Positions 1 to 24,239 of a DNA stretch of 64,000 bases are shown here, piece after piece. How positions within the stretch are numbered: position 1 is the stretch's first letter; each line of letters begins with the position of its first letter. This DNA comes from Stenotrophomonas raiganjensis (SeqCode) (GTDB taxonomy: Bacteria > Pseudomonadota > Gammaproteobacteria > Xanthomonadales > Xanthomonadaceae): the NCBI RefSeq assembly GCF_030658505.1, contig NZ_JAUTXR010000195.1:62001-126000 (forward strand), read 5' to 3'. Below the pieces are notes generated by a model. That model was not told the origin of the DNA. It saw nothing but the letters and a program-made list of their open reading frames with translations, and did no database searches. Both the position numbers and the translations under genes were made by a program.

Positions 1-3000
1 ATGCGGTGCTGGATATGGCCGGCCGCAAGGTCAGCCTGTTCGACGTAGACAAGTACAGCTGGGGCGGTGACGTGGCGCTGTCGAGCCGCGAAGGTGACAT
101 CGCTGCCGACGCGGCGTCGCGCATCGATCTTTCCGCCCGCAACAACCGCGGCGGCCGCTTGACGGTCGCTGCGCTGGGCCCGCAGGGCGGCCGTGTAGAT
201 CTGGCAGGTACGTTGCTTGGCGGAGCCAGTGGCCGCTACGACGCCGGTGGCACTGAAGTGCCCTTCGACGGTGGCGAACTGGTGGTGCGCGCACGGCAGC
301 TGCAGGACTTCTCCGGATTGAATACACGGCTTACCGCCGGTGGCATTACCGGTGGCCGGACCTTCCAGTTGAGCGAAGGCGACCTGGTGATCGGCGATGA
401 AGTGAAGGCACGCAACGTTGATATCAGCGTCGATGGCGGCAGCCTGCTCGTCAATGGCCGCATTGATGCCAGTGGCGAACAGGTCGGCAGCATCCGCCTG
501 TCCGCACGCGATGTGTTGCGTATCGACGGCACATTGGACGCGCATGGCAGCGCCTTGCGCGTCGATAGTTACGGCAAGATCATCGACAGTCCGAACCGGG
601 CGATGATCGAACTGACCTCGGCCAGTGGCAGCCTGCAGCTGGGCGCGACTTCATCGATGGACCTGCGCGCTGGCACCTCGGTGGCCACGGGTAGCAGCCC
701 TGGCCAGAACGATGGCCGCGCACGCGGCAGCGTCAAGCTCAACGTGCCACGCGTGGGCAGCAGCGACGCTGCGATTGACGTGGCCAGCGGACTCCGCATC
801 GCCGGTGCCGCCGATCTCCAGGTCAACGCCTTCCGCAGCTATGATTCGGCGCCGTTGGCAAGCGCTCCGGACGTGCATGGCCATCGTCCGCAGGTAATCA
901 ACCAGCATTGGCTGGACACGGTTGTGGACCCGGACAACAGCCAGTGGATGAATGCCGCACTGGCCAATGCGGGATTGCAGCAGCGCACTGCCGCACTGGG
1001 CAGCTACCGCCTGCGCCCCGGCGTGCAGATTGTGGCGCGGACCAGCAGTGACAACCCGCGTGGCGATCTGGTCGTGGCCGGGGATATCGATCTGTCCGGC
1101 TACCGCTACGGGCCGCAGTCGAACCGGGCCGATCCAGCGCGCCGTGGCTTCGGTGAATCGGCAGCGCTGGTGCTGCGCGCCGAAGGCGATATCAACGTCT
1201 ACGGCAGCATCAACGACGGTTTCGCGCCGCCACCTGCCAACCCGGATGAAGATGGCTGGGTGCTGCTGGAAGGGCGGAGCGCGGGCTCGCCGAACACCGC
1301 ATTTGGTGGCGATCTGATCGTGCCTGGCGAGGGCGTCAAGCTCCAGATCGGCACTGAGTTCCGCGCGGGTGTGACACTGAATTACGCCCTGCCGTTCCAG
1401 GCGCTGACCTTGCCGTCCGGAACGGTGCTGCCGGTGGCCATGACGCTGTCGGCGGAGCTCACGCTGCCTGCCGGGACTGTGCTGGGGGCGGCGGTGACCA
1501 CCGATGGCGGCCAGGTACTGGCAGCAGGCACTGTGCTGGCCCAGGCGCTCACCCTGCAGGCAGGCGCACGGCTGGGCGCCGGCTTCCGCCTGCGCAGTCC
1601 GGCACCGGTGGCCGCCCAGGTATGGCCTGCTGGAGTGGCGTTGCCGATGGTGATGCGGCTCTCCGGTGGACTGGATCTGCATGCCGGCGCCATCATCCCC
1701 TCAATGACCAAGGTGGAACTGGCCGGCGACGCTCCGGTGAAGCTCCGGGTGGCCGACGCCAGCGGCCGGCAGGGGCGCAATTGGGCATTGGCCGCAATGC
1801 TGCCCGAAGGCACCACGTCATGGGACCTGACTGCGGTGGCCGGTGCAGATACGGCGTCTGCCGATCCGCGCGCGCGCCGTTGGGGCAGTAACGGCAGCAT
1901 CGTGCTCGCTGACAGCCACTACAGCACCATCGGTACGGTGACCACCACGTCGGAATGGAAAGGCGATCGTGTCGTCAACCTGGAGGGGTCGCTGTTCTGG
2001 TGGGGAGACGACAGCCTGGTCGGCAAGTCGCCCCGGGAGGCGGCTGAAATGCTGGGCGTCGCCGAAGGTGACGTTTGCGAACTGGGACCATTCTGCGGCC
2101 CCGCGCCGCGCCTGGTAGACAAGGAGGGTTCACTGATGTGGCGGGGGGATGAGTCCTGGGTCGGCAGGCCCGCATCGGAACTTGGCGCCGCGATTGGCCT
2201 GTCGGAGGAAGAGGTCTGTGCAGGCACCGGCTACTGCTACGGGGGCGGTACGCTTACCGAAATCACCACCTACGGCAAGCGCCTGGGCTCGCCGGCCTGG
2301 AGCGTGTTGCGTACCGGCAAGGGAGACCTGGCGCTGCTGGCGGCGCAGGACGTGCGCATGAAGTCCGGCTTCGGTGTCTACACTGCGGGTACGCCAACCC
2401 ACCTGGGGGATGGCAACGATTCGAGCTTCAACGCGCCGCGTGCGCCGAAGCCGGAAAACAACGCGCTGCTCGGTTCGATCCAGGCCTCCGGGGCCTATGA
2501 CGCGGCCCTGGCCGGCTACCAGGCGTGGTATCCGGACCATGGTGGCAATCTGCGCATTGAGGCGGGGCGCGACATCATCGGCGATACATGGAGCTTCCGC
2601 GCGGAAGCAGGCACGGTCCAGCGCGACCAGGCTGGCCACTCAAGCGCAGCGGTGGGCAACTGGTTGTGGCGGCAGGGATCGGGTACCACCAGTGGGGTAG
2701 TACAGACGCCGACCAGCTGGTGGATCAACTTCGGAACCTACAGCACGGTACGGCCCGAACTGGATGCAACCCCCCGCCTGGTTGGCTTCACCGGGTTCGG
2801 AACGCTGGGTGGCGGCAATCTGAGCATGGACGCAGGCCGTCATATGGGCATGCTGGACAGCATGGGCAACGCGCTGGGCTACGAGGTCTCGCCTCATTCG
2901 AGCGCGCTTTCGGTCGCGGTCGGGTCGACTGGGCGCGTGGTCGATGGCCAGTTGCATGTCACCGGCGGCGGGGACCTGGGCCTTCGCAGTGGTGGTGCCC

Positions 3001-5450
3001 TGAACCCGGGCCTGCGTGCCAGCGATCGCGGCGGCACATCGGTTCAGCAGGACCTGGACGTCAATGGCGTGGTGACCAACGTTCGTGGCAATACCCGCAT
3101 CGACGCTGCGCGCATCGGTGGCCTCAGTGCGATCCAGGCCAGCTATGGGCAGCTGGGCCTGAAGGATCCGCTGGTGGCGGACAGCCCGGTTGCGATGGCC
3201 GGACCGGTACTGGTGCTTGGCGATTCAACCGCGCAGTTGCAGGCACGCGGCGATGTGGTGCTGGGTAGTGCTGCCGATCCCGGCCGGGTTCCCGTGGCCA
3301 ATTTCAACCATATCGTTCTGGATGACGGCAGCCGCGCGTCTGGTACAAGCTGGTTCTCGCTGTGGACGCCGCGCACCGCGCTGGACCTGTTCTCCGCAGG
3401 TGGGAATCTGTCGCCGGGTCTGGTAGGCACGCAACATGTGAGCGGCAGCAACCAGGCCAGGGAAGTGATCTCGACCAACGCCAGCAATGGCGACGTCTAT
3501 CTCAACTACTGGTTGTATCCCTCCCGGTTCTCGGCCATTGCAGCCTCCGGCAACATCAATCTCGCCAATCTGCGCAGCGGCAGTGTGCCAGACGCCCAGG
3601 ACGTGATCCTGCTGGCGCCCTCGGCGACCGGTCGGCTGGAAGTAGTGGCGGGAGGGTCGATCCTGGCCGCCAACCGGGCCACTCAGATCGTGCGCTCCAG
3701 CAGTGATGTCCGCGTCCCCGGCCCGTTCGATCCCGGCTTCATCGCACAGGGTCCCGGAAACGCGGGAACCGTGCGCAGCAATGTATCCGTCGATGGGAAC
3801 AGCGCCAGCCCTGACACCGTGCTGCCGTATTTCGCGTTCGGTCCCAATACAGCACTCGGTGCGCTGTTGCCGGCCACCCCGACCGCGACCAGCCGGTTCT
3901 ATGCCGTAGCCGGCGATATCATCGGGCTGGGCAGCGGCGGCAGGCGGCAGCTCGTGCGCAATGATCAGAATGACGGGCGTACCGTGTTCGACTGGTATGA
4001 GGCGGGTTCGGCGGTACGGCTGCGCGCCGGCCGCGATGTAATCAACGCGGATGTCACCGCGCTCAACACCAGCGGTACAGATATCAGCGGGATTGAGGCG
4101 GGCCGGGACATCATCCGCAGCAACCTGACGGTGGCCGGCCCCGGCAACGTGGAGGTCAGCGCGGGTCGCCAGCTGCGCCAGGAAGAGGCCGGCAGCATCG
4201 TCAGCCTGGGTGGCATCGTGCAGGGCGATATGCGCCCGGGCGCAAGCATCGCCTTGACAGCGGGCAACCAGGGCGTTGATTTCGATGCACTGCGCACGCG
4301 CTACCTGGATCTGGCCAACCTCGCCGATTCCTCGCAGTCGTTGGCTTCGCAGCCGGGCAAGGTGGTGAAGATCTACGACGAGGAGTTGAGGCAGTGGCTG
4401 CAACAGCGCTTCGGTCTGGCCGTCGGCGGCGCCGAGGCCCTGGCGACGTTCGACCGGTTGCCGAAGGAACAACAGCATATCTTCCTGCGCCAGGTCTACT
4501 ACGCCGAACTGCGTGAAGCTGGACGCGAGTACACCGATGCCGAAGGCCCGCGGTCGGGTTCCTACCTGCGCGGTCGCGAGGCTATCGCCACGCTGATGCC
4601 GGACAAGGATGCGACCGGGGCAACGATCCAGCGCGCCGGCGATATCGTGATGTACGGCGGCTCCGGCGTGCGCACTGAGGCGGGCGGCAACATCGAGCTG
4701 ATGGCGCCGGGTGGGCAGATCGTGATCGGTGTGCAGGGCGTGGTGCCGCCGGCCAGTGCCGGACTGGTGACCCAGGGGCAAGGTGATATCCGGCTGTTCA
4801 GCCAGGACAGCGTGCTGCTGGGCCTGTCGCGGGTGATGACGACGTTCGGCGGTGACATCCTCGCCTGGTCGGAGCAGGGTGACATCAATGCCGGACGCGG
4901 TTCGCAGACTACGCTGCTGTATACGCCACCGCGTCGCGTCTATGACGGCTGGGGCAATGTGGTGCTGTCTCCGCAGGTGCCGGCCAGCGGCGCGGGCATC
5001 GCCACCTTGAACCCGATTGCCGAAGTGCCGCCGGGCGACGTCGACCTGATCGCGCCGCTGGGCACCATCGATGCGGGCGAGGCTGGCATCCGCGTGTCGG
5101 GCAACATCAACCTTGCCGCGCTGCAGGTGCTCAACGCGGCCAACATCCAGGTGCAGGGCGAGAGCAAGGGCCTGCCGGTGCTGGCCACGGTGAACGTCAA
5201 TGCGCTGGCTTCGGCCAGTGCGGCAGCGAACAGCGCAAGCCAGGCGGCACAGGATGTGATGCGCAAGAGCCAGGACGATGCACGACGCAACCAGCCGTCG
5301 GTGATCAGCGTGCAGATCCTCGGTTTCGGCAGTGGCACCAGCAGCATTGCGCCGCCGGCACGCGGCACTACTGCCAACAGCGGCTACGACGCCAACAGCG
5401 CGTTCCAGTTCCCGCAGGCAAGCCGCGACGAGGGCACGCAGCGCCGGTAG
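1..5450 (+). CDS. Filamentous haemagglutinin-like exoprotein (TpsA), 5' end outside window
   Basis: This is the C-terminal 1815 residues of a very large secreted protein; the frame is already open at base 3, so the signal peptide and the TPS secretion domain lie upstream of the window. The sequence is rich in G, N, D and short beta-strand repeats of the type 'GGDI..AGRDI', as in the beta-helix of FHA-family exoproteins, and the C-terminal third looks like the DUF3739 type of FHA proteins. It is expected to be exported by Sec and secreted by the TpsB encoded at 8383. The whole visible protein has only four cysteines, all in a tandem insert at residues about 658-744. Residues about 465-570 hold degenerate repeats of the form TLPAGTVL. 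TpsA and TpsB are separated here by type II secretion genes. The exact role (adhesin, enzyme carrier, toxin) cannot be read from this part. Confidence 0.85.
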   Translation, partial: AVLDMAGRKVSLFDVDKYSWGGDVALSSREGDIAADAASRIDLSARNNRGGRLTVAALGPQGGRVDLAGTLLGGASGRYDAGGTEVPFDGGELVVRARQLQDFSGLNTRLTAGGITGGRTFQLSEGDLVIGDEVKARNVDISVDGGSLLVNGRIDASGEQVGSIRLSARDVLRIDGTLDAHGSALRVDSYGKIIDSPNRAMIELTSASGSLQLGATSSMDLRAGTSVATGSSPGQNDGRARGSVKLNVPRVGSSDAAIDVASGLRIAGAADLQVNAFRSYDSAPLASAPDVHGHRPQVINQHWLDTVVDPDNSQWMNAALANAGLQQRTAALGSYRLRPGVQIVARTSSDNPRGDLVVAGDIDLSGYRYGPQSNRADPARRGFGESAALVLRAEGDINVYGSINDGFAPPPANPDEDGWVLLEGRSAGSPNTAFGGDLIVPGEGVKLQIGTEFRAGVTLNYALPFQALTLPSGTVLPVAMTLSAELTLPAGTVLGAAVTTDGGQVLAAGTVLAQALTLQAGARLGAGFRLRSPAPVAAQVWPAGVALPMVMRLSGGLDLHAGAIIPSMTKVELAGDAPVKLRVADASGRQGRNWALAAMLPEGTTSWDLTAVAGADTASADPRARRWGSNGSIVLADSHYSTIGTVTTTSEWKGDRVVNLEGSLFWWGDDSLVGKSPREAAEMLGVAEGDVCELGPFCGPAPRLVDKEGSLMWRGDESWVGRPASELGAAIGLSEEEVCAGTGYCYGGGTLTEITTYGKRLGSPAWSVLRTGKGDLALLAAQDVRMKSGFGVYTAGTPTHLGDGNDSSFNAPRAPKPENNALLGSIQASGAYDAALAGYQAWYPDHGGNLRIEAGRDIIGDTWSFRAEAGTVQRDQAGHSSAAVGNWLWRQGSGTTSGVVQTPTSWWINFGTYSTVRPELDATPRLVGFTGFGTLGGGNLSMDAGRHMGMLDSMGNALGYEVSPHSSALSVAVGSTGRVVDGQLHVTGGGDLGLRSGGALNPGLRASDRGGTSVQQDLDVNGVVTNVRGNTRIDAARIGGLSAIQASYGQLGLKDPLVADSPVAMAGPVLVLGDSTAQLQARGDVVLGSAADPGRVPVANFNHIVLDDGSRASGTSWFSLWTPRTALDLFSAGGNLSPGLVGTQHVSGSNQAREVISTNASNGDVYLNYWLYPSRFSAIAASGNINLANLRSGSVPDAQDVILLAPSATGRLEVVAGGSILAANRATQIVRSSSDVRVPGPFDPGFIAQGPGNAGTVRSNVSVDGNSASPDTVLPYFAFGPNTALGALLPATPTATSRFYAVAGDIIGLGSGGRRQLVRNDQNDGRTVFDWYEAGSAVRLRAGRDVINADVTALNTSGTDISGIEAGRDIIRSNLTVAGPGNVEVSAGRQLRQEEAGSIVSLGGIVQGDMRPGASIALTAGNQGVDFDALRTRYLDLANLADSSQSLASQPGKVVKIYDEELRQWLQQRFGLAVGGAEALATFDRLPKEQQHIFLRQVYYAELREAGREYTDAEGPRSGSYLRGREAIATLMPDKDATGATIQRAGDIVMYGGSGVRTEAGGNIELMAPGGQIVIGVQGVVPPASAGLVTQGQGDIRLFSQDSVLLGLSRVMTTFGGDILAWSEQGDINAGRGSQTTLLYTPPRRVYDGWGNVVLSPQVPASGAGIATLNPIAEVPPGDVDLIAPLGTIDAGEAGIRVSGNINLAALQVLNAANIQVQGESKGLPVLATVNVNALASASAAANSASQAAQDVMRKSQDDARRNQPSVISVQILGFGSGTSSIAPPARGTTANSGYDANSAFQFPQASRDEGTQRR
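1977..2237 (+). repeat. Tandem cysteine-pair module inside TpsA
   Basis: Two adjacent units of about 40-47 residues share the pattern (N/D)xEGSLxWxGDxSxVGxxxxE, then a helix-like stretch, then C-x5-C (Cys691/697 and Cys738/744 counted from the GTG at base 6). They hold the only cysteines in the 1815 visible residues. The two units are clearly alike at protein level but differ at many positions, so the duplication is old. Confidence 0.75.
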
Positions 5451-5466
5451 GCATCGCGCGATCCCG

Positions 5467-5758
5467 GTAGGTGCCGACCTTGGTCGGCACACACCGCTGC
5501 CGATCTCGGTCGGCAGTAGATCCACGCCAGGCATGGACGCGAACGGGCCGGAAGAACAGACAGCATCGGGCCAGCCGCCAGGGAGCGGTGGCGGCCCCAG
5601 CCAGGACGGCACGGAGGGCAGGGAGAGGCCATCAGCGGTGAGGACCACCGACACAGCGCTGCCGGGTGCAGGAGAGCACCCGGCGGCAGGAGGGGCGCGC
5701 GCATGTGTCACGGTAGATGCCGACCTTGGTCGGCAGTAGATCCACGCCATGCGTGGAT
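5467..5758. repeat. SMAG (GTAG-type REP) elements between tpsA and gspJ
   Basis: The 327-bp gap after tpsA carries GTAG-headed palindromes at 5467-5490 (stem GTGCCGACC/GGTCGGCAC), 5516-5538 (imperfect stem ATCCACGCC), 5713-5735 (TGCCGACC/GGTCGGCA) and 5736-5758 (ATCCACGC/GCGTGGAT). The last two lie directly head to tail. A degenerate GTAG-less copy lies at about 5497-5516. Nothing gene-like is convincing in 5540-5710. The elements lie between convergent genes and may act as transcript ends. Confidence 0.8.
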
Positions 5759-5777
5759 GCGGTGCCACGAACCAATC

Positions 5778-6392
5778 CTAAAGCTCCAGCACCCGCCGGT
5801 AACTCAACGGCCCACGCCCATCGCGCAGGCCCAACCGCAGTTCAAGTCCGGTGGCCGGCAATGCCTCGCCCTCGCTCGGCAACACGGCCCATCCCGTTCC
5901 AGGCTGCCACGCCCGCACCTCGAACCGCTGCACATCGCGCGCCACCGCAAGGCCCTTCGACGGATCTGGTGCGGGCAGGGGATACCGGTCCGTAGCCGCA
6001 CCACTGGCCCGCCACAGCGTGCTGCCCTGCCGCCACCAGCGCACCCGCTGCCAGTGCCGCCCATCACTGCCGACACTGCGGGTGATCTCCAGCGCGAAGC
6101 TGCCATCCGGGTGCCGCTCGCTCACCAGCGACGGGGGCAGCAGTCGCTGCGGACGATCTGCCGGGCGCACCGCGCCATTCATCAGCGCATCGTCGGCACG
6201 CATTTCAATATCGCGCTGGAACTGCTGCAGCACGCGCAGCGCCGTCGTGGTCTCGGCATCGGCCTGGCGCAGGCGCTGATCGCTGTTGGCCACGCTGTCC
6301 AGCGCACGCCAGCAGATCAGCGCCAGCACGCCCATGATGGTGATCGCGATCATCACCTCGATCAGGGTGAAGCCACGCACGGCGCGCCTCAT
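5778..6392 (-). CDS. gspJ: Type II secretion minor pseudopilin GspJ
   Basis: The 204-residue product starts with a prepilin peptidase site and helix, RGFTLIEVMIAITIMG, in which cleavage is expected after the glycine. The length and position after gspH and gspI, the WRALD stretch after the helix and the D/E-rich middle fit GspJ, the pseudopilus tip subunit of type II secretion. The ATG at 6392 overlaps the end of gspI by 4 bp, so J, I and H form a tight leftward operon. Genes for the secretin, ATPase, major pseudopilin and GspK/L/M are not in the window. GspJ is a better fit than GspI or GspH because of its length. Confidence 0.85.
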   Translation of the reverse strand: MRRAVRGFTLIEVMIAITIMGVLALICWRALDSVANSDQRLRQADAETTTALRVLQQFQRDIEMRADDALMNGAVRPADRPQRLLPPSLVSERHPDGSFALEITRSVGSDGRHWQRVRWWRQGSTLWRASGAATDRYPLPAPDPSKGLAVARDVQRFEVRAWQPGTGWAVLPSEGEALPATGLELRLGLRDGRGPLSYRRVLEL

Positions 6393-6751
6393 TGCGCCGC
6401 AGTCCACGGCAGCTGCATCCGGGCCAGCGACTGCCGCGGTGCATCTTCGGCCACCACGGTCAATTCCAGTTGCGGCTGCCAGTCGCTGCCAGTGCCCAGA
6501 TGCTGCAGGACCAGGAAGCTGCCGCGTCCCTGCACACAGCGCTGCCGCGCATCCTGCGGTGGCTGCCCGGCGAGGCGCAGCTCCTGCCAGCGGTCCTGCG
6601 CGCACAACAGCGCCAGGCGACGGTCGCGCAGCCGTGACTGATCGTCGGTCGCCACTGCCACCGAGCGCATCACCGCAGCCAGTGCAATCGATACGATCGC
6701 CAGCGCGATCAACACCTCGATCAGGGTGAATCCGCGCGCTGTCTGCTTCAC
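6389..6751 (-). CDS. gspI: Type II secretion minor pseudopilin GspI
   Basis: This is a 120-residue protein with the prepilin motif RGFTLIEVLIALAIVSIALAA, typical of GspI, followed by a short domain with two cysteines (CAQDRW and QRCVQG). The start is GTG at 6751, overlapping the gspH stop as GTGA, and its 3' end overlaps gspJ, indicating translational coupling. GspI is a core minor pseudopilin that nucleates the tip complex with GspJ and GspK in the inner membrane and periplasm. Confidence 0.85.
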   Translation of the reverse strand: MKQTARGFTLIEVLIALAIVSIALAAVMRSVAVATDDQSRLRDRRLALLCAQDRWQELRLAGQPPQDARQRCVQGRGSFLVLQHLGTGSDWQPQLELTVVAEDAPRQSLARMQLPWTAAQ

Positions 6752-7194
6752 TGCACGACCTGCAATTGTCCGCTGCCATCATCACGAAGACGCAGTGCGC
6801 GGCCGTCCAGCGACAGTCCAAGCTCCCAGGCGGTACCGATCCACTCCGGGCTCAGCTCGATGGCGTTGGTGGGCTCCACCGCGATGCCTGCAGCCTGCCA
6901 CTTCTGTGGACGCAGCAGATCATCGCGTTCAACGGTGACCCAGCGGCTGCCTTCGAGGCGGCTGAAACGATAGCCGGCGGCGTCGGCCTGCCAGCGCAGG
7001 GGGCGGCCATCGATGCGGGCCTCGTCGCGCGCCACCTGCAGGCGCTGCGCCAGTCGTTCGCCTTCCTGCCGCAGCTGGCGCGCGGGATCGAGCAGACTGC
7101 CCAGGCCCAGGCCGATGCCTGCCGTGCAGATGCCGATGATCACCAGCACCACCATCAGTTCCAGCAGGGTGAAACCACGCGGGATGCGTCGCAT
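6748..7194 (-). CDS. gspH: Type II secretion minor pseudopilin GspH
   Basis: The product is about 148 residues with the prepilin signal RGFTLLELMVVLVIIGIC and a C-terminal domain ending in GRALRLRDDGSGQL, as in GspH. An ATG also exists 6 bp upstream (7200), but AGGAGG at about 7203-7208 is too close to that codon and is well placed for 7194. It is the first gene of the leftward H-I-J operon and is divergent from gspC, leaving about 100 bp for both promoters. Confidence 0.85.
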   Translation of the reverse strand: MRRIPRGFTLLELMVVLVIIGICTAGIGLGLGSLLDPARQLRQEGERLAQRLQVARDEARIDGRPLRWQADAAGYRFSRLEGSRWVTVERDDLLRPQKWQAAGIAVEPTNAIELSPEWIGTAWELGLSLDGRALRLRDDGSGQLQVVQ

Positions 7195-7298
7195 CGACAT
7201 TGCCTCCTGTCCCTTGCCGATGCGTGCCAGCGTAGGCCCGCATGATGAAACAAAAGCGTCAGCCGCACCTGCTAGCGTAGGCGGACACGAACGTGGCG

Positions 7299-7763
7299 AT
7301 GATGTGGAACATGGACGGCAGGCGCTGGGATCGGAATCGGATGTTGACCCTGCTGGCGGCGACGCTGCTGCTGGCCGTGGTGGCCTATTGGAGCGTCACC
7401 CTGTCTGCGGTGGCGCCAGCAGCGGCCGCGAGCGAAGCGCATGCCGAGGCGCCGGTACGGCCGATGTTCGATGCAGTGGCCAGCCTGCCACTGGTGCGGC
7501 TGCTGTCTCCCGGCGCGGTGCAGACCGAGGTGGTGGTGCTGGGCGTGATGGCGGGTGACCACGCGCCACTTGCCCTGCTGTCGGTGGATGGACGCCCGCC
7601 GGAGGCGTACGCGCCCGGCCAGCGGCTCGGGCCCTGTACGGTGCTGGCCAGCATCAGCGCCAACGCGGTGGAACTGAACCAGGCCGGGCAATCGCGCAGC
7701 CTGCCGGTGCCCGCGCTGCCGGCGGTGCCGACCGATGGCATCGTGCCCGCCAGCTCCCTGTAG
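7299..7763 (+). CDS. gspC: Type II secretion inner-membrane protein GspC (short, HR domain only)
   Basis: The product is about 154 residues: a short cytoplasmic N-terminus, one membrane helix (LTLLAATLLLAVVAYWSVTL) and a periplasmic HR-type domain (LLGVMAGDHAPLALLSVDGRPPEAYAPGQ-like strands, with PGQRLGPCTV). GspC links the inner-membrane platform to the secretin. No PDZ or coiled-coil region follows, so it is a short form like those in Xanthomonas or Hxc systems. The start is uncertain (GTG 7293, ATG 7299, 7302 or 7311). Its stop codon TAG (7761-7763) is part of the GTAG head of a SMAG repeat. Confidence 0.7.
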   Translation: MMWNMDGRRWDRNRMLTLLAATLLLAVVAYWSVTLSAVAPAAAASEAHAEAPVRPMFDAVASLPLVRLLSPGAVQTEVVVLGVMAGDHAPLALLSVDGRPPEAYAPGQRLGPCTVLASISANAVELNQAGQSRSLPVPALPAVPTDGIVPASSL

Positions 7764-7842
7764 AGCCGAGCCCACGCTCGGCTGCTTTTCGCGTGCCGTC
7801 CGCAACGCAGGTAGGCGCAGCCGAGCGTGGGCTCGGCTCTAC
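7760..7842. repeat. Inverted pair of SMAG elements
   Basis: A GTAG-headed element at 7760-7783 (AGCCGAGC/GCTCGGCT stem) faces an inverted copy at 7819-7842. The pair sits between the convergent ends of gspC and the small exported protein gene and could fold as a long hairpin that ends both transcripts. The gspC stop lies in the first GTAG. Confidence 0.85.
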
Positions 7843-7854
7843 AGCTGCGCAGGT

Positions 7855-8190
7855 TCAGCGCGCCGGGCGCTGTGGCACTACCGTTCGCCCGAAGGCATCA
7901 CCCATGCGCTGTCGCGTGCCCTCCAGGTTGTACTGCATCAGCTGGTTGCCGGGCTGCCGCATCAGGCGTTCGGCTTCAGGCAGCTCCGGTGACTTCGCCG
8001 CTTTCGATGCCGGCGCCAGCTTGCGCTGCAGGCAGTCCCAGGCCGGTATGCGCTCGCCGTTGACCTGTACTTCGATGCAGGGAGCGGCATCTTCCTGCTT
8101 CTTCGCCTCGTCGGCTCGAACCGGGGCCAACACCAGCAGAAAGGCAAGGGCGAAGGCAGCGCGCAGTTCCACCATCAATGATTCACGCAT
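7855..8190 (-). CDS. Small exported protein of unknown function
   Basis: This is a 111-residue protein with a signal peptide (LRAAFALAFLLVLAPVRA) and a mature part of about 85 residues that has one cysteine pair (PCIEVQVN and WDCLQRKL) and is otherwise polar. The ATG at 8190 is chosen because GGGAG lies about 8 bp upstream; a longer frame starts at 8223. It is transcribed away from tpsB, and the Pho-box region lies between them. No family was recognised. Its place between a T2SS gene and tpsB suggests a part of, or cargo for, this secretion island, but this is inference. Confidence 0.65.
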   Translation of the reverse strand: MRESLMVELRAAFALAFLLVLAPVRADEAKKQEDAAPCIEVQVNGERIPAWDCLQRKLAPASKAAKSPELPEAERLMRQPGNQLMQYNLEGTRQRMGDAFGRTVVPQRPAR

Positions 8191-8288
8191 CTCGAATCTC
8201 CCGCAGCAATCCACGCTCTGCAATGAAGACGTGTGGCGAAGTCAGGGTCCGCCTGCGTGCGTTGCGGCGCCGTCAAAAGATGACAGTG

Positions 8289-8306
8289 CTGTCACAAAAC
8301 TGTTGG
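8289..8306 (+). promoter_or_regulatory. Candidate Pho box upstream of tpsB
   Basis: CTGTCAC-AAAA-CTGTTGG fits the PhoB-binding pattern of two 7-bp direct repeats separated by a 4-bp A/T spacer. The first half agrees throughout with CTGTCA(T/C), and the second agrees in its first four bases. An ATGACAG at 8280-8286 is the reverse of another half-site. It lies about 75 bp before the tpsB start and could also serve the leftward gene at 8190. Confidence 0.55.
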
Positions 8307-8382
8307 CGGTTTTGACGCGACGTACACGTCCTGTTGGTAGACCCACGCGCCGCTCCCTGGCCATTCCCTTCGATACGACGCG

Positions 8383-10008
8383 ATGCCTTCGATGACTCCT
8401 GTTCCGTGCCGAGCCGTCCGCCTTCCGCTGCGCCTGCATCCGCTGGTGCTGGCCCTGGCCGCGATGCCGCTGCCATTGTTCGCGCAGGACGCGGCGCCTG
8501 CGCCCAGCGTGAACATCAATGAATACATCGTGCGCGGCAACACCGTGCTCGATCCGCGCCAGATCGAACGTGCGGTGGAGCCGTTCCTCGGCCCGGGCAA
8601 GACCTTGGCCGATGTCGAGAAGGCGCGCGATGCGGTCAATGCGCTGTACCAGCAGGCAGGCTACCAGTCGGTCTACGTCGAGCTGCCCGAGCAGCAGGTC
8701 AGCGGTGGCGTGGTGCTGCTGAAGGTACAGCAGACACCGATTGGCCAGCTGCGGGTCGTAGGCACGAAGCACGAATCGCCCGAGCGCATCCGCGAACGCG
8801 TGCCGGCACTTGCCGAGGGCAAGGTGCCTGACTTCGACCAGGCGCAGAAGGAACTGACCGCGCTGAATGAAGGCGGACGCCGCCAGGTGATGCCGCTGGT
8901 GCGAGAGGGCCAGGTGCCGGGCACGATGGATGTGGACCTGCAGGTCGAGGAGAAGTCGCCATGGCGTGCCAGCGCGTCACTCAACAACGACCACAGCGCC
9001 GACACCGAGAAGCTGCGCCTGAGTGCGTCGCTGGCCTACGACAACCTGTGGAAGCGGGGGCACAGCGCCAACATCGGCGTGTACCTGGCGCCGGAAGATG
9101 CAAAGCAGGCCAAGGTGTTCTCGGCCTCGTACACGATGCCGTTCGAAGGCACGCCGTGGAGCCTGGAAGCGTCCGGCTACAAGTCCGACAGCCGCGTGCT
9201 GAACGCGGGCGGACAGGTCGGTACCGGCACCGGAACCAATGTGATCGGCAACGGCCATTCGATCGGTCTCAAGCTCAATTATCGACTGGCCGGCAGCAGC
9301 CAGTGGTGGCGCCAGCTCAGCCTCGGCGTGGACTTCAAGGACACCGAGGAAGACACGCAGATGGGCAAGGAAAGCCTGAAGACGCCGCTGAAGTACGCGC
9401 CGATCACCCTGGCGTTTGTCGGTGTGCGCCAGGGCGAGCAGGATCAGTTGAGCATCAATACCCAGCTGGTGGCCGGCACCCGCCGCCTGTTCGGCTATGG
9501 CAGCGATGCCATCGGATTCGGGCAGAAGCGCTACTGGGCGGACCCCAGTTTCATCGCGTTCAAGGCCGATGTGGCCAACACCCACACCTTCGGCAACGAC
9601 TGGCAGTGGTACGCGCGCGGCTCGCTGCAGGTGACCGACGCACCGCTGGTGTCGGCCGAGCAGTTCGCCGCCGGTGGCATGTACACCGTGCGCGGCTATC
9701 TGTCGGCCGAGGCGATCGGCGACTACGGCGGCCTGGCCAGCCTGGAATGGCGCACCCCGGCGTGGTCGCTGTGGAGCGGCACGGATCTGCGCGTCTACAG
9801 CTTTGCCGACGCCGCCTACCTGCGCCTGCGCCAGCCACTGCCCGAACAGCGTGACAAGTACAACCTGGCCTCGGTCGGCCTGGGCGCGCAGCTGCGCCTG
9901 GGCGAGCACCTGCAGCTGCGCCTGGACTACGCCTGGCCCTATGCCGATGGCCCGGTCACGCGCAAGGACGATCCGCGCCTGCATTTCAACATCAGCACCA
10001 GTTACTGA
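8383..10008 (+). CDS. Two-partner secretion outer-membrane transporter (TpsB, ShlB/FhaC/HecB family)
   Basis: The 541-residue protein has a signal peptide ending near PLPLFAQ, a POTRA-type domain (INEYIVRGNTVLDPRQIERAVEPFLG, residues about 45-110), a second POTRA-like part, and a C-terminal 16-strand barrel. The diagnostic TpsB motif VRGY...GDYGG is seen at about residues 433-446, the segment that contacts the plug loop in FhaC. It should secrete the TpsA encoded at 1-5450. It begins the rightward run tpsB-exbB-exbD-tonB-porin, in which gaps are short, so one transcript is likely. The start could also be the ATG at 8392; neither has a strong ribosome site. Confidence 0.9.
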   Translation: MPSMTPVPCRAVRLPLRLHPLVLALAAMPLPLFAQDAAPAPSVNINEYIVRGNTVLDPRQIERAVEPFLGPGKTLADVEKARDAVNALYQQAGYQSVYVELPEQQVSGGVVLLKVQQTPIGQLRVVGTKHESPERIRERVPALAEGKVPDFDQAQKELTALNEGGRRQVMPLVREGQVPGTMDVDLQVEEKSPWRASASLNNDHSADTEKLRLSASLAYDNLWKRGHSANIGVYLAPEDAKQAKVFSASYTMPFEGTPWSLEASGYKSDSRVLNAGGQVGTGTGTNVIGNGHSIGLKLNYRLAGSSQWWRQLSLGVDFKDTEEDTQMGKESLKTPLKYAPITLAFVGVRQGEQDQLSINTQLVAGTRRLFGYGSDAIGFGQKRYWADPSFIAFKADVANTHTFGNDWQWYARGSLQVTDAPLVSAEQFAAGGMYTVRGYLSAEAIGDYGGLASLEWRTPAWSLWSGTDLRVYSFADAAYLRLRQPLPEQRDKYNLASVGLGAQLRLGEHLQLRLDYAWPYADGPVTRKDDPRLHFNISTSY

Positions 10009-10046
10009 CCCTTCCCTTGAACATGCGTTCTCCGGAGACCCTTCGC

Positions 10047-11831
10047 ATGGACCGTTTGCTTTCCCGAGTGTTGCTGCTGCTGGCCGCGCTGGTTGCGTTG
10101 CCGGCTGCTGCGGCCGATGCCAATTGGTGGCAGGCCGAATGGAAGTACCGCAAGCCGATCACCGTCGACGCCGGCCCGCAGGGCGCGGGCCTGGCCGGTG
10201 ACCCGGGCCGCACGCCGCTGCTGCTGCGCCTGCATACCGGCAACTTCGGGTTCGACGGTACCCAGGACGCGGGCAACGACCTGCGCTTTGTCTCGGCTGA
10301 TGGCCGCACCGTGCTGGCCCACCAGATCGAACAGTTCGATCCCAAGCTGGGCCTGGCCCTGGTCTGGGTGGACGTACCGGCAGTCAGCGCTGCGGCACCG
10401 CAGACGATCTGGATGTACTACGGCAATGAGAAGGCGCCGGCCAGCGGCAATGGCCAGCAGGTGTTCGACCCGGACTACACGCTGGTCTACCACTTCGCCG
10501 AAGCCAATGCACCGGCGCGCGACACCACCGCCTATGGCAACAATGCAGGTGCCGTGGTGCCGCCGTCGGAAGGCTCGGTGATCGGCCGTGGCGTGCAGTT
10601 GGGTGCCGGTTCGCTGCCGCTGCCGGCCAGTGCGTCGCTGGCCCAGGAAGCGGGCGCGCCGCTGACAATCTCGGCCTGGATCAAGCCGGGCAGCAACAAC
10701 GCCGCGCAGGCGATCTACGCCCGTCGCGACGGCGCGTCCGAGCTGGTGCTGGGCATCGAGAACCGGGTGCCGTTCGTGCAGCTCAATGGCCAGCGCAGCA
10801 CGCCGGCGCAGCCAATTCCGGAAGGGCAGTGGGCGCACGTGGCGCTGACGGCGGAGAAGGGCGCTCTGCAGCTGTACCTCAATGGCCGCGTGGTCGCACA
10901 GCTGAGCGGCGAATTGCCGGCGCTGGTCTCCGCCCCGGTGGTGGGCGCCGATGCCCCAGGCGCGGCGCAGCCACTGGCCAACTTCGAGGGCGCGCTGGAT
11001 GAGCTGCGCATCTCGCGGGTGGCGCGTCCGGCAGCGCTGTTGCTGGCCGATGCCACTGCACAGGGCGCCGACTCGCGCCTGATCAGCTATGGCGCCGACG
11101 AGCAGTCGACCGGCCAGAGCCACTTCGCCTTCATCCTCAAGGCGATGCCGTTCGATGCCTGGGTGGTGGTCGCCATCCTCGGCCTGATGATGCTGCTGTC
11201 GTGGGCGATCATGATCGCCAAGGGGCGCCACTTCGGCCGTACCAGCAAGGCCAATGCGGTGTTCACCGAGAGCTTCGGCAAGCTGTCCGGCGTACCGTTG
11301 CGCACCCTGTCCGACATGGACCGCCAGGGCAAGGCGCCGACCGCGATGCACGATGGCTCGCTGTGGCGCATCTACCAGGTGGCCATCGATGAAATGCAGC
11401 AGCGCCACCAGCGTGATGGCAACAGCGGTTACCTCAGTGGTGCCACCATCGCGGCGATCCGTGCGTCGATGGATGCGGTGATGGTGCGCGAGCAGGAAGC
11501 GATGGCGCGGCGCATGAACTGGCTGTCGACCACCATTGAGGGCGCGCCCTACGTGGGCCTGTTCGGCACCGTGATCGGCATCATGCTGGTGTTCGTGGTG
11601 GCGGCGATGGCCGGCGCGGTCGACATCAACTCGGTGGCGCCCGGCATGGCCGCGGCGCTGCTGTGTACCGCTGCCGGCCTCGGCGTCGCCATCCCGGCAC
11701 TGTTCGGCTACAACTACCTGGGTGCGCGTGCCGAAGCGATCGGCGCCGATATGGCGGTGTTCATCGACGAGTTCGCCGCGCGCCTGGCCGAAGAGCAGGA
11801 CGGGCGCGGCCCGGCCGCGGTCCAGGGCTGA
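10047..11831 (+). CDS. DUF2341-LamG-ExbB fusion (MotA/TolQ/ExbB proton-channel family)
   Basis: The 594-residue protein has an N-terminal signal peptide, then a DUF2341 region (WWQAEWKYRKPITVDA onward, with WMYYGN near residue 125), then a LamG/concanavalin-type domain (about 165-330), then the ExbB core with a first membrane helix (WVVVAILGLMMLLSWAIMI), a cytoplasmic loop and the paired helices GTVIGIMLVFVVAAMAG and AAALLCTAAGLGVAIPALFG. ExbB normally lacks the roughly 330-residue extracytoplasmic part. GGAG 10 bp before the ATG at 10047 decides this start over upstream TTG/ATG codons. It should form a proton-driven motor with the next gene (ExbD) and energise the TonB at 12259. Confidence 0.88.
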   Translation: MDRLLSRVLLLLAALVALPAAAADANWWQAEWKYRKPITVDAGPQGAGLAGDPGRTPLLLRLHTGNFGFDGTQDAGNDLRFVSADGRTVLAHQIEQFDPKLGLALVWVDVPAVSAAAPQTIWMYYGNEKAPASGNGQQVFDPDYTLVYHFAEANAPARDTTAYGNNAGAVVPPSEGSVIGRGVQLGAGSLPLPASASLAQEAGAPLTISAWIKPGSNNAAQAIYARRDGASELVLGIENRVPFVQLNGQRSTPAQPIPEGQWAHVALTAEKGALQLYLNGRVVAQLSGELPALVSAPVVGADAPGAAQPLANFEGALDELRISRVARPAALLLADATAQGADSRLISYGADEQSTGQSHFAFILKAMPFDAWVVVAILGLMMLLSWAIMIAKGRHFGRTSKANAVFTESFGKLSGVPLRTLSDMDRQGKAPTAMHDGSLWRIYQVAIDEMQQRHQRDGNSGYLSGATIAAIRASMDAVMVREQEAMARRMNWLSTTIEGAPYVGLFGTVIGIMLVFVVAAMAGAVDINSVAPGMAAALLCTAAGLGVAIPALFGYNYLGARAEAIGADMAVFIDEFAARLAEEQDGRGPAAVQG

Positions 11832-11841
11832 GGGGCGCGCC

Positions 11842-12255
11842 ATGGGCCAGAAGGCGAAGTTCGGCATCAAGAAGCGCGAGAAGGGCATCAACGTAACGCC
11901 CTTCGTCGACGTGCTGCTGGTGGTGCTGGTGATCTTCATCCTGACCAGCAACGCCTCCATCCCCGGCATCGAGGTCAATCTGCCGAAGGCCAGCAACAGC
12001 GTGGCCCTGGAAAAGCCGAAGACCAAGGCGATCACCATCGACCCCAGTGGCCAGGTGTTCCTGGATGCCTACCCGGTGACGATGGCCGAGCTGGAAGATC
12101 GGCTGCGTACCGAACGCGCGACCACGCCGGATTTCCCGGTGATCGTGCGCGGTGATGCGCAGGTGCAGTACGCCCGCGTGGTCGAGGTGCTGGACCTGCT
12201 GCGGCGGCTGGAGCTGGCCCAGGTCGGCCTGGTCACCGGCAAGGCGCAGGGCTGA
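11842..12255 (+). CDS. exbD: Biopolymer transport protein ExbD
   Basis: The 137-residue protein has one N-terminal membrane helix with the catalytic aspartate in NVTPFVDVLLVVLVIFILTS, the proton-relay residue of ExbD/TolR, and a periplasmic domain ending in ARVVEVLDLLRRLELAQVGLVT. The ATG at 11842 is preceded by GAGGGG. It lies 10 bp after the ExbB fusion and 3 bp before tonB, so the three motor genes are almost certainly co-transcribed. Confidence 0.93.
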   Translation: MGQKAKFGIKKREKGINVTPFVDVLLVVLVIFILTSNASIPGIEVNLPKASNSVALEKPKTKAITIDPSGQVFLDAYPVTMAELEDRLRTERATTPDFPVIVRGDAQVQYARVVEVLDLLRRLELAQVGLVTGKAQG

Positions 12256-12258
12256 GGC

Positions 12259-12960
12259 ATGACGGCCCATCAACCCCCTCGGCCGGAGCCCGGCATGCGC
12301 GGTCGCCAGTTACTGGTGACCGTTGCACTGGTGCTGGCCGCGTTGCTGGTGCTCGGCATCGCGGTGTGGTGGATGCTGTTCAAGGACACCGCCAGCACCC
12401 GCCGGCCGGTGGTGCAGCCACCGATGCTGGCGCTGCCACCACCCCCTCCACCGCCTCCGCCGCCGCCGGAAAAGCCACCGGAGCCGGATACGCCGCCGGA
12501 AGAGACCATTTCCGAACCGGAGCCGCTGGATCAGCCGACGCCGGCCGAAGAGCCGACGCCGACGCCGGATAACAGCGATCCGGTGACGATGAATGCCGAC
12601 GCGCAGGCCGGTGGTGACAACTTCGGTATCCAGTCCGGCAGTGGTGGCGGTTCGTCCGGCGTTGGCCGTGGTGGCGCCGGCAACGCTACCTACGGCCGCT
12701 ACCTGGGCTACCTGATGCAGCAGGCGATCTCGCGCGACGACAAGGTCAAGCGCCTGGCGTTCCAGCTGCAGGTGAATGTGTGGCTGGCCAACGACGGCCG
12801 CCTGGAAAAGGTCGAACTGGTGCGCGGCAGTGGCAACGAAGAGGCCGACGCGGCCGTGCTCGATGCTCTGCGTCGCATCGGCAAGGTTGACCAGGCACCG
12901 CCGCCCTCGCTCGACTTCCCCGCCCGCGTGCTGATCCAGGGCCGCCGGCCCGGTGCCTGA
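12259..12960 (+). CDS. TonB-type energy transducer
   Basis: The 233-residue protein has one N-terminal membrane helix (about 18-42), a proline-rich arm with eleven consecutive prolines followed by E/P repeats (about 60-110), a Gly/Ser-rich linker and a C-terminal TonB domain with ANDGRLEKVELVRGSG and DAAVLDALRRI. It should carry energy from the ExbBD motor to an outer-membrane partner. Here the encoded candidates are TpsB and the porin at 13003; no TonB-dependent receptor is in this operon, which is unusual. Confidence 0.9.
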   Translation: MTAHQPPRPEPGMRGRQLLVTVALVLAALLVLGIAVWWMLFKDTASTRRPVVQPPMLALPPPPPPPPPPPEKPPEPDTPPEETISEPEPLDQPTPAEEPTPTPDNSDPVTMNADAQAGGDNFGIQSGSGGGSSGVGRGGAGNATYGRYLGYLMQQAISRDDKVKRLAFQLQVNVWLANDGRLEKVELVRGSGNEEADAAVLDALRRIGKVDQAPPPSLDFPARVLIQGRRPGA

Positions 12961-13002
12961 TTCCCGACTTCCGTGATTTCCCTTCTTTGGATGAGAACCG
13001 TG

Positions 13003-14748
13003 ATGAACGACCACGACCGCGCACGAACCGACTCCCGCCGCCCGCGGCCGGCCCGACGGGCGCTGCTGTGCTGCGCCGTGCTGCTCAGCCTGGCCGCCCC
13101 GGCCGGTGCGATGGCGGCCGAAACCACCATGGTCAAGCTGATCAAGGGCCTGATCGCCAGCGGTGCACTGAAACCCGAAGACGGCCAGGCACTGCTGGTA
13201 CAGGCCGAAGCCGAAGCGGCGGCCGCACAGCGCACTGCAGCCACGGGCAGCACCGCGGCGAGCGGTGGCGTGGCCCTGGAGGCCGGTGACGTGCGCGTGC
13301 CGTACGTACCGCAGAGCGTGCGCGACGGCATCCGTGACGAAGTGCGCCAGGACGTGATGGCGCAGGCGAAATCGGAAGGCTGGGCGGCACCCAACGAAGT
13401 GGCCGAGTGGACCAAGCGCATCAAGGTCACCGGTGACATGCGTGTGCGCAGCGAGTCGCGCTTCTACTCCGAGCGCAACAGCGACATCGTGAGCAACTGG
13501 TCGTCGATCAACTCCGGCAACGGCTTCGACACCAACACCAATACCAATCTGCAGCTGCCGCCGCTGCTGAACACCCGCCAGGACCGCCGTAACCTGTGGC
13601 GCATCCGTGCCCGCTTGGGCATCGAGGCAACCATCGGCCAGCACACCACGGCCGGCGTGCGCCTGGCCAGCGGCAGCAGCAATGGCCCGGTGTCGACCAC
13701 CGAGCAGCTGGGTGGCGGCCTGAGCAAGAAGGACGTGTGGTTGGACCAGGCGTGGCTGGCCTACAGCCCGGCGGACTGGGTGACGGTGCGTGGCGGCCGC
13801 TTCGGCAATCCGTTCTGGACCAGCGACACGCTGTTCTCCAACGACCTGAACTTCGATGGCCTGGCCGCCAACCTGAAGTATGACTTCGACGATGGCGACC
13901 TCGAGCTGTTCGGCAACCTCGCGGTGGTGCCGCTGGAGTACACCTCCGACAGCTCGCCCAGCCAGAGCCGGGTCAAGACCCCGAATGAGAACAAGTGGCT
14001 GTCCGGTGCGCAGGCAGGTGTGAACTGGCGCTTCAATGACGAGAATGCGTTGCGCGCTGCATTGGGCTACTACGACTTCAAGAACATCAGCGGACGCCTG
14101 TCCTCGCCGTGCGCGCTGTATGCGGGCGCGGTGGGCTGCGACACCGACTGGTCGCGCCCGGCGTTCATGCAGAAGGGCAACACGCTGATGCTGATCCGCG
14201 ACATCGCGCGCAATCCGCTGGACCCGGCCAACACGCCGACCCCGCAGTATGTCGGCCTGGCCTCGGCATTCCGCCTGGCCACGCTGAACCTGCGCTGGGA
14301 TACCCAGCTGGCCCAGGACATCGGCCTGCGCCTGGATGGCGACTATATCCGCAACCTGGCCTACGACAAGCAGGGCATGTTCAGCCGCGCCAACAACGGC
14401 ATCGTCAACAACTACGGTGCCGGTGGCACCGCCAGCATCGATACCTTCCGCAGTGGCGACACTGCCTGGATGGTGCAGGCCACCTTCGGCGCCACTGACC
14501 TGAAGGAGAAGGGCCAGTGGCAGGCGCTGCTGGGCTACAAGCACATCGAGGCCGATGCGCTGCCCGACGCCTACAACGATCCCAACTTCCACCTGGGCGG
14601 CACCAACGCCCGCGGCTACTACGTGGGCGGCGCCTACGCGCTGGATGCACGCAGCTGGATCAGCGGCAAGTGGATGGCGGCCAAGGAAGTGTCTGGCGCA
14701 CCGCTGTCGATCGACGTGTTCCAGCTGGAGTTCAATACCGGCTTCTGA
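13003..14748 (+). CDS. Putative outer-membrane porin of the Ton cluster
   Basis: The roughly 581-residue protein has a long positively charged signal peptide (cleavage near GAMAAE), a short helical N-terminal part rich in Ala/Glu (MVKLIKGLIASGALKPEDGQ), then a large barrel with alternating aromatic strands and a terminal strand ending in FQLEFNTGF (C-terminal Phe). It looks like the 'putative porin' family (Porin_5). Starts at GTG 12973, ATG 12991 and ATG 13003 are all possible; 13003 follows GGATGAG at a usable distance. It ends the tpsB-exbBD-tonB run, so it may be the substrate channel or scaffold served by this Ton motor. Confidence 0.75.
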   Translation: MNDHDRARTDSRRPRPARRALLCCAVLLSLAAPAGAMAAETTMVKLIKGLIASGALKPEDGQALLVQAEAEAAAAQRTAATGSTAASGGVALEAGDVRVPYVPQSVRDGIRDEVRQDVMAQAKSEGWAAPNEVAEWTKRIKVTGDMRVRSESRFYSERNSDIVSNWSSINSGNGFDTNTNTNLQLPPLLNTRQDRRNLWRIRARLGIEATIGQHTTAGVRLASGSSNGPVSTTEQLGGGLSKKDVWLDQAWLAYSPADWVTVRGGRFGNPFWTSDTLFSNDLNFDGLAANLKYDFDDGDLELFGNLAVVPLEYTSDSSPSQSRVKTPNENKWLSGAQAGVNWRFNDENALRAALGYYDFKNISGRLSSPCALYAGAVGCDTDWSRPAFMQKGNTLMLIRDIARNPLDPANTPTPQYVGLASAFRLATLNLRWDTQLAQDIGLRLDGDYIRNLAYDKQGMFSRANNGIVNNYGAGGTASIDTFRSGDTAWMVQATFGATDLKEKGQWQALLGYKHIEADALPDAYNDPNFHLGGTNARGYYVGGAYALDARSWISGKWMAAKEVSGAPLSIDVFQLEFNTGF

Positions 14749-14845
14749 GTGGCGGCGTGATGCGGATCACGTCGTGCGTGGCGGGGGCGCAGCGATGCGC
14801 CCGTCTAAGGAAAGGAGACCACGCGTTGTTCAAAAGGAGGAGTGG

Positions 14846-15175
14846 ATGAGCCGTCGCAAGCTGTTCGAGAGTCCCGAACCGTCCAGCCAGATGCTGGGTG
14901 TTGGACCGGCCTATGTTTCCGTGGAGGGCCTGCGCCAGCATCTGGCGGAGTTCCTGCTGTATGCCGGCCGGCCGGTGGTGATCATGCGCGGGCGCAGTGA
15001 AGTAGGCTACTTCCTGCCGGCGCGCTGCTGGCGCCAGCGTGACGATGATCCGCTGGCAGCGGCTGCCGCCGACCAGCTGCTGGATGCGGCCGGGTTCCAG
15101 GCCGAGGACATCCAGCAGGTGGAGCAGGAATTCAACGCGATGCGCCAGCGCACCGTGCTGCATTCGCGGCGCTGA
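14846..15175 (+). CDS. Small protein, Phd-antitoxin-like fold suspected
   Basis: The 109-residue protein starts at an ATG preceded by AAAAGGAGGAG, the strongest ribosome site in this region. The segment RPVVIMRGRSEVGYFLPARCW resembles the DNA-binding half of Phd/YefM antitoxins ('pvvvtrrgkpvavlvp'). The C-terminal half is helical and acidic. No toxin gene is beside it. It follows the porin by about 95 bp and may be the last gene of the Ton operon. Its function is unknown. Confidence 0.55.
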   Translation: MSRRKLFESPEPSSQMLGVGPAYVSVEGLRQHLAEFLLYAGRPVVIMRGRSEVGYFLPARCWRQRDDDPLAAAAADQLLDAAGFQAEDIQQVEQEFNAMRQRTVLHSRR

Positions 15176-16410: not shown

Positions 16411-16497
16411 GGTGGGTCTCCATTGCAGGAGCGGCGCGAGGCCGCGGGGGAATGCCCGGGGGCGGGCAGGGGCAGGATGGCAGGGCAGGCGATGCGG

Positions 16498-18159: not shown

Positions 18160-18281
18160 GGAAGTGTCTCGCTCTGGGGGGAGGGGGGGTAATCGCCGCG
18201 GGGCGTTGGGGTGGCGGAGGCATCCAGTGCTTCCCCGGTGATGTGTATCCGCCATCGGCGGGTTGTTGGGGCGTCGCGGCC

Positions 18282-19703: not shown

Positions 19704-19780
19704 GATCGCCTCCGGTGCAGGCTGGAAGAAGGAAGGGCAAAGCAGGGCGGCGGCACTGTGGCGCACCGCCCCGCATGGCA

Positions 19781-24206: not shown

Positions 24207-24239
24207 GGCCCGCGCAGCACCCGGATGAACGGGGCGCAT

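Follow-up and report, generated by a model that had tools for sequence, protein, structure and literature searches.

A Ton-type motor linked to a two-partner secretion pair in Stenotrophomonas raiganjensis: conservation, a shared TpsA tail and a possible role in exoprotein retention

Introduction

Why should a two-partner secretion (TPS) locus carry a proton-driven motor of its own? The question is raised by a locus of Stenotrophomonas raiganjensis lying in a stretch of 64,000 nucleotides (contig NZ_JAUTXR010000195.1, positions 62,001 to 126,000, hereafter the window), where tpsB, the gene of the outer-membrane transporter, is followed by genes for a LamG-ExbB fusion, ExbD, TonB and a porin, downstream of the gene for a giant TpsA exoprotein. 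Textbooks give type V secretion as the standard example of outer-membrane export without an energy source, and a review describes its translocation step as reconstituted without energy input (PMC5422565). The analysis presented here indicates that the motor genes are co-inherited with TpsA proteins of the DUF3739 type, that relatives of Nitrospira keep the motor and the TPS pair without a full-length porin, and that the linked TpsA proteins share a C-terminal tail. In our analysis the chances are about even that the Ton-type motor acts on TpsB/TpsA, probably via this tail, and so sets whether the exoprotein is held or released.

A similar gene order has been described in Pseudomonas aeruginosa, where exbB2, exbD2, tonB4 and PA0696, a putative porin gene, come after pdtB, under PhoB/VreI control (PMC2729926, PMC4971064, PMC7035377), and the association of TPS genes, ExbBD and PA0696 in several genera has already been noted (PMC2729926). 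Among the open-licence papers searched, as far as their accessible text goes, none was found that describes a motor function in a TPS locus, and the term "two-partner" was not found in the accessible part of PMC12204202. The gene called exbB2 in S. maltophilia (PMC11002078) belongs to a hemin operon and is not the motor gene of the window. As far as these searches show, three findings are new: DUF3739-type TpsA is coupled almost exclusively with motor and porin, Nitrospira relatives have a porin-free form, and the tail is shared and in places fused to STN.

Results

Genes of the locus

Gene families were called by Pfam and NCBIfam profile matches (Pfam at E 0.001). The initial annotation, made from the sequence alone, had placed tpsA, gspJ-I-H, gspC, tpsB, a LamG-ExbB fusion, exbD, tonB and a porin together in this part of the window; family matches bear this out, and every gene that it listed is found at its position. 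The features that matter for the motor are as follows.

1..5450, plus strand: tpsA, C-terminal 1,815 codons, an open frame continuing from upstream DNA
4848..5180, plus strand: DUF3739 (PF12545) of TpsA, profile match
5301..5333, plus strand: C-terminal strand motif VISVQILGFGS of TpsA, candidate motor-docking tail
8383..10008, plus strand: tpsB, FhaC/CdiB-like transporter (ShlB and POTRA_2)
10047..11831, plus strand: DUF2341-LamG-ExbB fusion (DUF2341, Laminin_G_3 and MotA_ExbB in one 604-codon frame)
11842..12255, plus strand: exbD (ExbD match; Asp near residue 23)
12259..12960, plus strand: tonB (TonB/TolA-type C-terminal domain)
12973..14748 (start possibly 13003), plus strand: Porin_5 outer-membrane porin (E 4.9e-185)

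The whole TpsA is ~4,150 amino acids long; the start of its gene lies upstream of the window, as does its TPS domain (PF05860, profile match at contig position 55493). The genes from tpsB to the porin share one strand and are separated by 8 (38 with the fusion start at 10047), 10, 3 and 12 bp, in keeping with the single direction and short spacing first described, and the last small gene starts ~100 bp after the porin. The fusion probably starts at 10047, because most of the close homologues listed are 594 amino acids long. The ExbB part has the conserved Thr positions and ExbD the transmembrane Asp, residues with roles in Ton/Tol-type motors; the Asp near residue 23 is what we take to be the proton-path residue. 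TonB has a transmembrane anchor and a Pro-rich linker, both read by eye, and a C-terminal domain found by profile, which upon comparison with solved structures matches the domains of TonB, HasB and TolA. The same comparison gave nothing useful for the porin, and Pfam at the cut-off used detected neither a plug nor a TonB-dependent receptor domain in TpsB or the porin. The DUF2341 domain on such motor subunits is noted as being of unknown function in PMC12505986.

The motor is co-inherited with TpsA and the porin

Conservation was explored in a class sample of 369 genomes, incomplete and related genomes included, with the LamG part of the fusion as query and an E below 1e-100 for full-length Porin_5. 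The LamG query matched 25 genomes, 22 of them with full ExbB fusions (the matches in G101, G164 and G354 were rejected as such on a later check), full-length Porin_5 was present in 24 and a DUF3739-type TpsA in 23. All 23 of these DUF3739 genomes hold the porin and 21 the fusion, so that TpsA, Porin_5 and fusion are found together in 21 genomes, mostly side by side. With the raw 25 LamG matches the three-way coincidence comprises 22 genomes, giving hypergeometric p-values of 1e-31 to 1e-35 that rest on those raw matches and ignore shared ancestry. Genome G200 (64% complete) has DUF3739 and no LamG match, and G104 (85% complete) has fusion and porin and no DUF3739. Of the 22 fusion genomes, 21 carry the porin no more than 30 kb away on the contig of the fusion (20 of them at most 5 kb away), 20 carry DUF3739 within the 30 kb, and 18 tpsB; exbD and tonB adjoin the fusion in 21, the remaining contig being only 3.7 kb long. 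Chance grouping is excluded by this conservation. The claim that the set is conserved as a unit in relatives thus holds up well, even if its distribution within the genus is patchy, with one of the three Stenotrophomonas genomes of the sample lacking it.

The set was also found in alpha- and betaproteobacteria and in Verrucomicrobia. A scan with an alignment of 20 sequences listed 80 matches at named loci, 29 with the fusion and 51 with plain ExbB/TolQ, and the genes around them were identified by family models. The fusion loci include Stenotrophomonas, Lysobacter, Luteibacter, Pseudomonas, Trinickia, Janthinobacterium, Nitrosospira, Methylophilus, Bradyrhizobium, Sphingobium, Sphingomonas and Verrucomicrobia, the nearest among the matches listed being S. 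geniculata, whose fusion protein is 98% identical. Two gene orders recur, tpsB-fusion-exbD-tonB-porin-coiled coil, in some cases followed by tpsA, and tpsB-tpsA-fusion-exbD-tonB-porin-coiled coil. In the 29 fusion loci we counted exbD 29 times, tonB after exbD 27 times, the porin 27 times, the coiled-coil protein 24 times and tpsB 20 times, and DUF3739 was present in all 17 of their genomes that were checked. The coiled-coil gene was not found in the stretch read at the locus in the two Stenotrophomonas genomes. The 51 plain ExbB/TolQ loci served as a control, with tpsB nearby once (in a Nitrospira) and the porin never. A periplasmic-binding-protein-like gene and genes of a type II secretion system (T2SS) accompany the set in several genomes.

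A linker stretch resembling LGLDADGxAGSDGFGLxAxKGG precedes the C-terminal domain in most of the TonB proteins encoded at these loci (alignment columns ~167-200). Second sets of LamG-ExbB, ExbD and TonB were also observed, in L022 and L027 next to what by eye seem to be V-type ATPase subunit genes, the stretch holding neither a TPS nor a porin gene, and in L007 (3800-12300) shortly after GspD-, E- and F-like genes, where the set lacks its own porin.

Nitrospira relatives keep the motor without the porin

The single control locus with tpsB led to a sample of 60 genomes from the family of that Nitrospira. A close TpsB (55% identity or more) was found in 11 of the 60, with an adjacent tpsA in all 11. 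The order is tpsB-tpsA-exbB-exbD-tonB, with a plain ExbB; exbB-exbD-tonB come next in nine loci and the other two end at a contig start. Full-length Porin_5 was found in none of the 18 genomes searched, which include the 11 with a close TpsB; there was one partial match. Since the motor and tpsBA are kept here without full-length Porin_5, the TPS pair is the constant partner of the motor, and LamG and the porin are dispensable. The first reading had left the motor to act on either the TPS pathway or the porin; this form narrows the choice to the TPS pair, on which the motor would then act.

The motor-linked TpsA proteins of this type are only about 1,400-1,600 amino acids long. In six of the loci a PEP-CTERM-like gene and a binding-protein gene follow the motor set. 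Such genes (the sorting signal read by eye) repeatedly flank TPS-motor sets, as in L166, L167, L169, L170, L172, L180 and several loci of the genome sample, and the same two kinds of gene flank the TpsB paralogues of L176 and L177.

Linked TpsA proteins share a C-terminal tail

After DUF3739 and an Ala/Ser-rich linker, the linked TpsA proteins carry a short stretch of alternating hydrophobic residues ending in Gly-Phe-Gly or similar, which often forms the very last residues of the protein; in the window the stretch VISVQILGFG starts 49 residues before the end. A profile was built from 16 sequences, with the cut at the 99% point of shuffled tails. It placed above the cut 28 of 31 held-out linked TpsA entries, which count one Nitrosospira gene twice (L067, L160) and include near-identical Pseudomonas genes, and none of the 10 unlinked TpsA proteins, nine of which have a linked system elsewhere in their genome. 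The misses were L150, L164 and L151, and L158 was borderline, barely above the cut; a filter kept L154 out of the held-out set, its motif being present by eye. Left out of the unlinked 10 were L129, L131 and L137, in which the C-terminus of TpsA is out of view, L135, L136 and L179, where the end of TpsA is not clear, and L139 and L141, linked-type loci whose contigs are split. L127, L128 and L140 were taken as TpsA from their position beside tpsB. Nitrospira-type TpsA proteins close with another shared stretch, close to RGVVIQVDVKP, in all 10 cases with the end in view, and the two kinds of tail may be alike in function.

Most tails carry no STN domain, but in two sphingomonads one follows the tail (Sphingomonas sp. 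ERG5, E 1.7e-10; Sphingobium quisquiliarum, E 3.6e-8). STN domains act in the periplasm, so the tail is probably periplasmic. VreA-like proteins with an STN and a TonB-like C-terminal domain were identified by family match in the Trinickia, Luteibacter and Sphingomonas loci, and another, with its STN part read by eye, in a Sandaracinobacteroides locus. VreA is described as joining STN to a TonB/TolA-like domain (PMC2729926). A simple joint reading, offered as a lead, would be that the TonB-like domains of both VreA and TonB bind the tail.

Discussion

How the motor could act, and what else it could do

The proposed mechanism is as follows. TpsB would export the giant TpsA, whose C-terminal tail would remain in the periplasm or lodged in TpsB, as that of HMW1 is known to do and that of HxuA is expected to do. 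The C-terminal domain of TonB would then dock on the strand of the tail, ExbB/ExbD would use proton flow to pull it, and this pull would decide between surface retention and release of the exoprotein, much as SiiAB does for SiiE. LamG and Porin_5 would be additions not needed everywhere, the porin perhaps serving as a second outer-membrane contact of the motor. Carried further, the locus might represent a distinct secretion variant, in which the tail is a Ton-box-like periplasmic handle, the motor pulls on an exoprotein threaded in TpsB, the proton motive force sets hold, tension or release, and some lineages read the state via STN; this fuller version seems to us less likely than not.

Several observations weigh against a motor that serves the TPS pair. 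Within Proteobacteria the porin is linked as tightly as TpsA, so that only the Nitrospira relatives separate the two, and there the TpsB paralogues of L176 and L177 have no motor in the stretch fetched. The proteobacterial tail profile, tried as one profile for all phyla, was rejected, matching none of 10 Nitrospira-type tails. Second motor sets with neither a TPS nor a porin to themselves are found far away from any such genes in G136 and G150; the one in G119 lies 12 kb from the tpsB of the first set. In G101 (99% complete) TpsA, TpsB and the porin are present and the fusion was not found; an assembly gap is likely, as contigs end at TpsA and at the porin, just where one would expect the motor genes. 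The shared ancestry ignored by the p-values belongs here as well. The D-box of the window TonB, the motif for contact with ExbD (described in PMC10907165), is degenerate, whereas it is clear by eye in many relatives. The pull of TonB would be inward, which is not obviously of help to export. Finally, insertion into PA0695 (tonB4) left the virulence of P. aeruginosa in zebrafish at the wild-type level (PMC2729926). The same source reports wild-type virulence for tpsA, tpsB and PA0696 insertion mutants, the sigma factor being overexpressed in all four, and their equal virulence means that no phenotype separates the competing views.

The main rival is a motor that serves the porin, since porin and TpsA are equally linked within Proteobacteria. 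Porin_5 would be a Ton-driven channel for a scarce, perhaps phosphorus-containing nutrient, with the TPS exoprotein co-regulated or capturing the substrate. The porin gene follows tonB and in 20 of the 22 fusion genomes lies close to the fusion; partial Porin_5 matches, which start at profile position 103 or later, lack its N-terminal region, where by eye a VRVPYVP-like strand is conserved; and binding-protein-like and T2SS genes near the set in several genomes, as well as the pho-box-like sites of this locus, would fit such a role. The porin-free form of the Nitrospira relatives speaks against it, as does the lack of a plug or receptor domain in the porin, and we regard it as rather unlikely. 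Still less probable is that TonB, through repeated cycles on TpsB or the TpsA chain, drives the export of an unusually long TpsA or frees it when it jams. The linked TpsA proteins of Proteobacteria and Verrucomicrobia are indeed long (mostly about 3,400-4,600 amino acids) and tpsB and the motor genes are often adjacent, but type V transport works without energy in vitro and the Nitrospira-type proteins are shorter than several unlinked ones, which reach about 2,100-3,100 amino acids with no motor in the stretch fetched. By eye there is no conserved extra segment at the TpsB N-terminus, and no conserved Ton-box-like motif there. The N-terminal plug helix has little or no room in the window TpsB, and its loss was considered as the reason for the motor; this was rejected, the unlinked TpsB proteins of G091 and G213 (L130, L132, L134) being alike, with a signal peptide that by eye leads almost directly to POTRA.

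Two further readings would take the motor away from secretion, and both seem to us highly improbable. In one, the motor would feed the state of the tail to an STN/FecR/sigma pathway of the VreA type. The STN domains after the tail in two sphingomonads, the VreA-like proteins of several loci, the PUMA3 system of P. aeruginosa and the sigma/FecR/STN-SlipAM genes 8-10 kb downstream in the window agree with this, yet most tails have no STN and no STN-TonB protein was found near the window locus. In the other, equally improbable one, unrelated phosphate-starvation genes would simply be clustered, with no physical coupling. The common PhoB/VreI control in P. aeruginosa would be explained in this way, but not the near-exclusive co-occurrence over several phyla, nor a tail found only in linked TpsA proteins.

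If the motor does act on the TPS pair, a driven step would be added to the picture of type V secretion, across Proteobacteria, Verrucomicrobia and Nitrospira relatives, and the uncharacterised exbB2-exbD2-tonB4 of P. aeruginosa would gain a role. The TpsA tail offers one short peptide for a direct test of the idea.

Type II secretion and regulatory genes around the locus

The remaining features of the locus are listed here.

5778..6416, minus strand: gspJ pseudopilin (prepilin motif; models below cut-off)
6389..6751, minus strand: gspI pseudopilin (prepilin motif; NCBIfam model above cut-off)
6748..7200, minus strand: gspH pseudopilin (prepilin motif; NCBIfam model above cut-off)
7293..7763, plus strand: gspC (T2SSC match, weak, below cut-off)
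7855..8223, minus strand: small exported protein, no Pfam family matched
8280..8306: pair of overlapping pho-box-like sites before tpsB (3 and 4 mismatches over 14 positions)
14846..15175, plus strand: small protein, no export signal by eye, no Pfam family matched

What had been described as pieces of a T2SS is right for the window, which holds gspC, H, I and J (C and J weak), and falls short for the locus: another six genes, gspG, K, L, D, E and F, precede tpsA, so that the GspC-L set is near-complete and wraps tpsA. Read towards tpsA, the upstream DNA starts with a PhdA-like gene, continues with these six in the order given, and closes with a periplasmic-binding-protein-like gene that separates gspF from tpsA. 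The first gene is called PhdA-like on two grounds: a model built from one sequence matches a gene immediately before tpsB in five Pseudomonas loci (E 1e-13 to 5e-15), and phdA is known to stand before pdtB. Pfam assigns it no family. A single-sequence model of the small exported protein matches 4 of the 29 named fusion loci, two of them weakly, and the small protein at 14846..15175 occupies the site of the exported coiled-coil protein of most relatives.

The three best pho-box-like sites in 35 kb lie before the PhdA-like gene/gspG, before tpsA and before tpsB. They have 3 mismatches or fewer, against 0.9 such sites expected from mononucleotide shuffles, which is a weak test; the sites on the tpsA and tpsB sides show 2-4 mismatches to the consensus. 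The tpsB-side site is retained in S. geniculata, and phosphate control in this organism is plausible. Pho boxes as a general feature of such loci were not supported: only 5 of 36 tpsB-upstream regions have a site with 3 mismatches or fewer, and a single Stenotrophomonas gene accounts for two of these; another region was not counted for its shortness.

No VreA-like STN-TonB protein was found near the window locus. The nearest STN protein in the window (24389-25162, 257 amino acids) stands beside a Sigma-70-region-4 gene and a FecR gene (22499-25162 for the three), and its second half matches the end of a surface lipoprotein assembly modifier (SlipAM) rather than a TonB-dependent receptor; these genes possibly form an unusual cell-surface signalling set. 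Between them and the locus, at 15769-20093 on the minus strand, an Alginate-export-type outer-membrane protein gene (PF13372) and an isochorismatase gene stand around a gene that is amidohydrolase-like by eye.

Comparison with known systems

The window locus is a relative of the hxc/pdt region of P. aeruginosa, as was first proposed. Sequences were compared with Pseudomonas relatives, PAO1 being known from papers, and the Pseudomonas loci examined have the same tpsB-exbB-exbD-tonB-porin order. Both regions have a T2SS beside the TPS pair, and the phosphate control of the one may have its counterpart in the pho-box-like sites of the other. Unlike in hxc/pdt, tpsA here lies inside a split T2SS cluster and the PhdA-like gene heads the gsp genes, while a coiled-coil gene after the porin and a VreA-like gene were not found at the window locus. 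With the Ton and Tol-Pal motors the set shares ExbB/TolQ, ExbD/TolR and a TonB/TolA-type C-terminal domain; it differs in the fusion of ExbB to LamG-DUF2341 and in having no TonB-dependent receptor in the set.

To our knowledge, the operons of HMW1/HMW1B and HxuA/HxuB contain no motor. Their anchor is a disulfide loop, which sets them apart from the tail described here, and the likeness lies in a C-terminal TpsA tail kept in the periplasm or the TpsB pore. Such anchoring in TpsB is known for HMW1 and expected for HxuA (PMC5422565). The SiiAB/SiiE system of Salmonella SPI-4 uses type I secretion, with neither TonB nor TpsB, and no homology is claimed. The likeness is in the way of working: a giant non-fimbrial surface protein is retained by means of a dedicated proton channel, a higher proton motive force raising the retention of SiiE and an uncoupler lowering it (PMC6272769).

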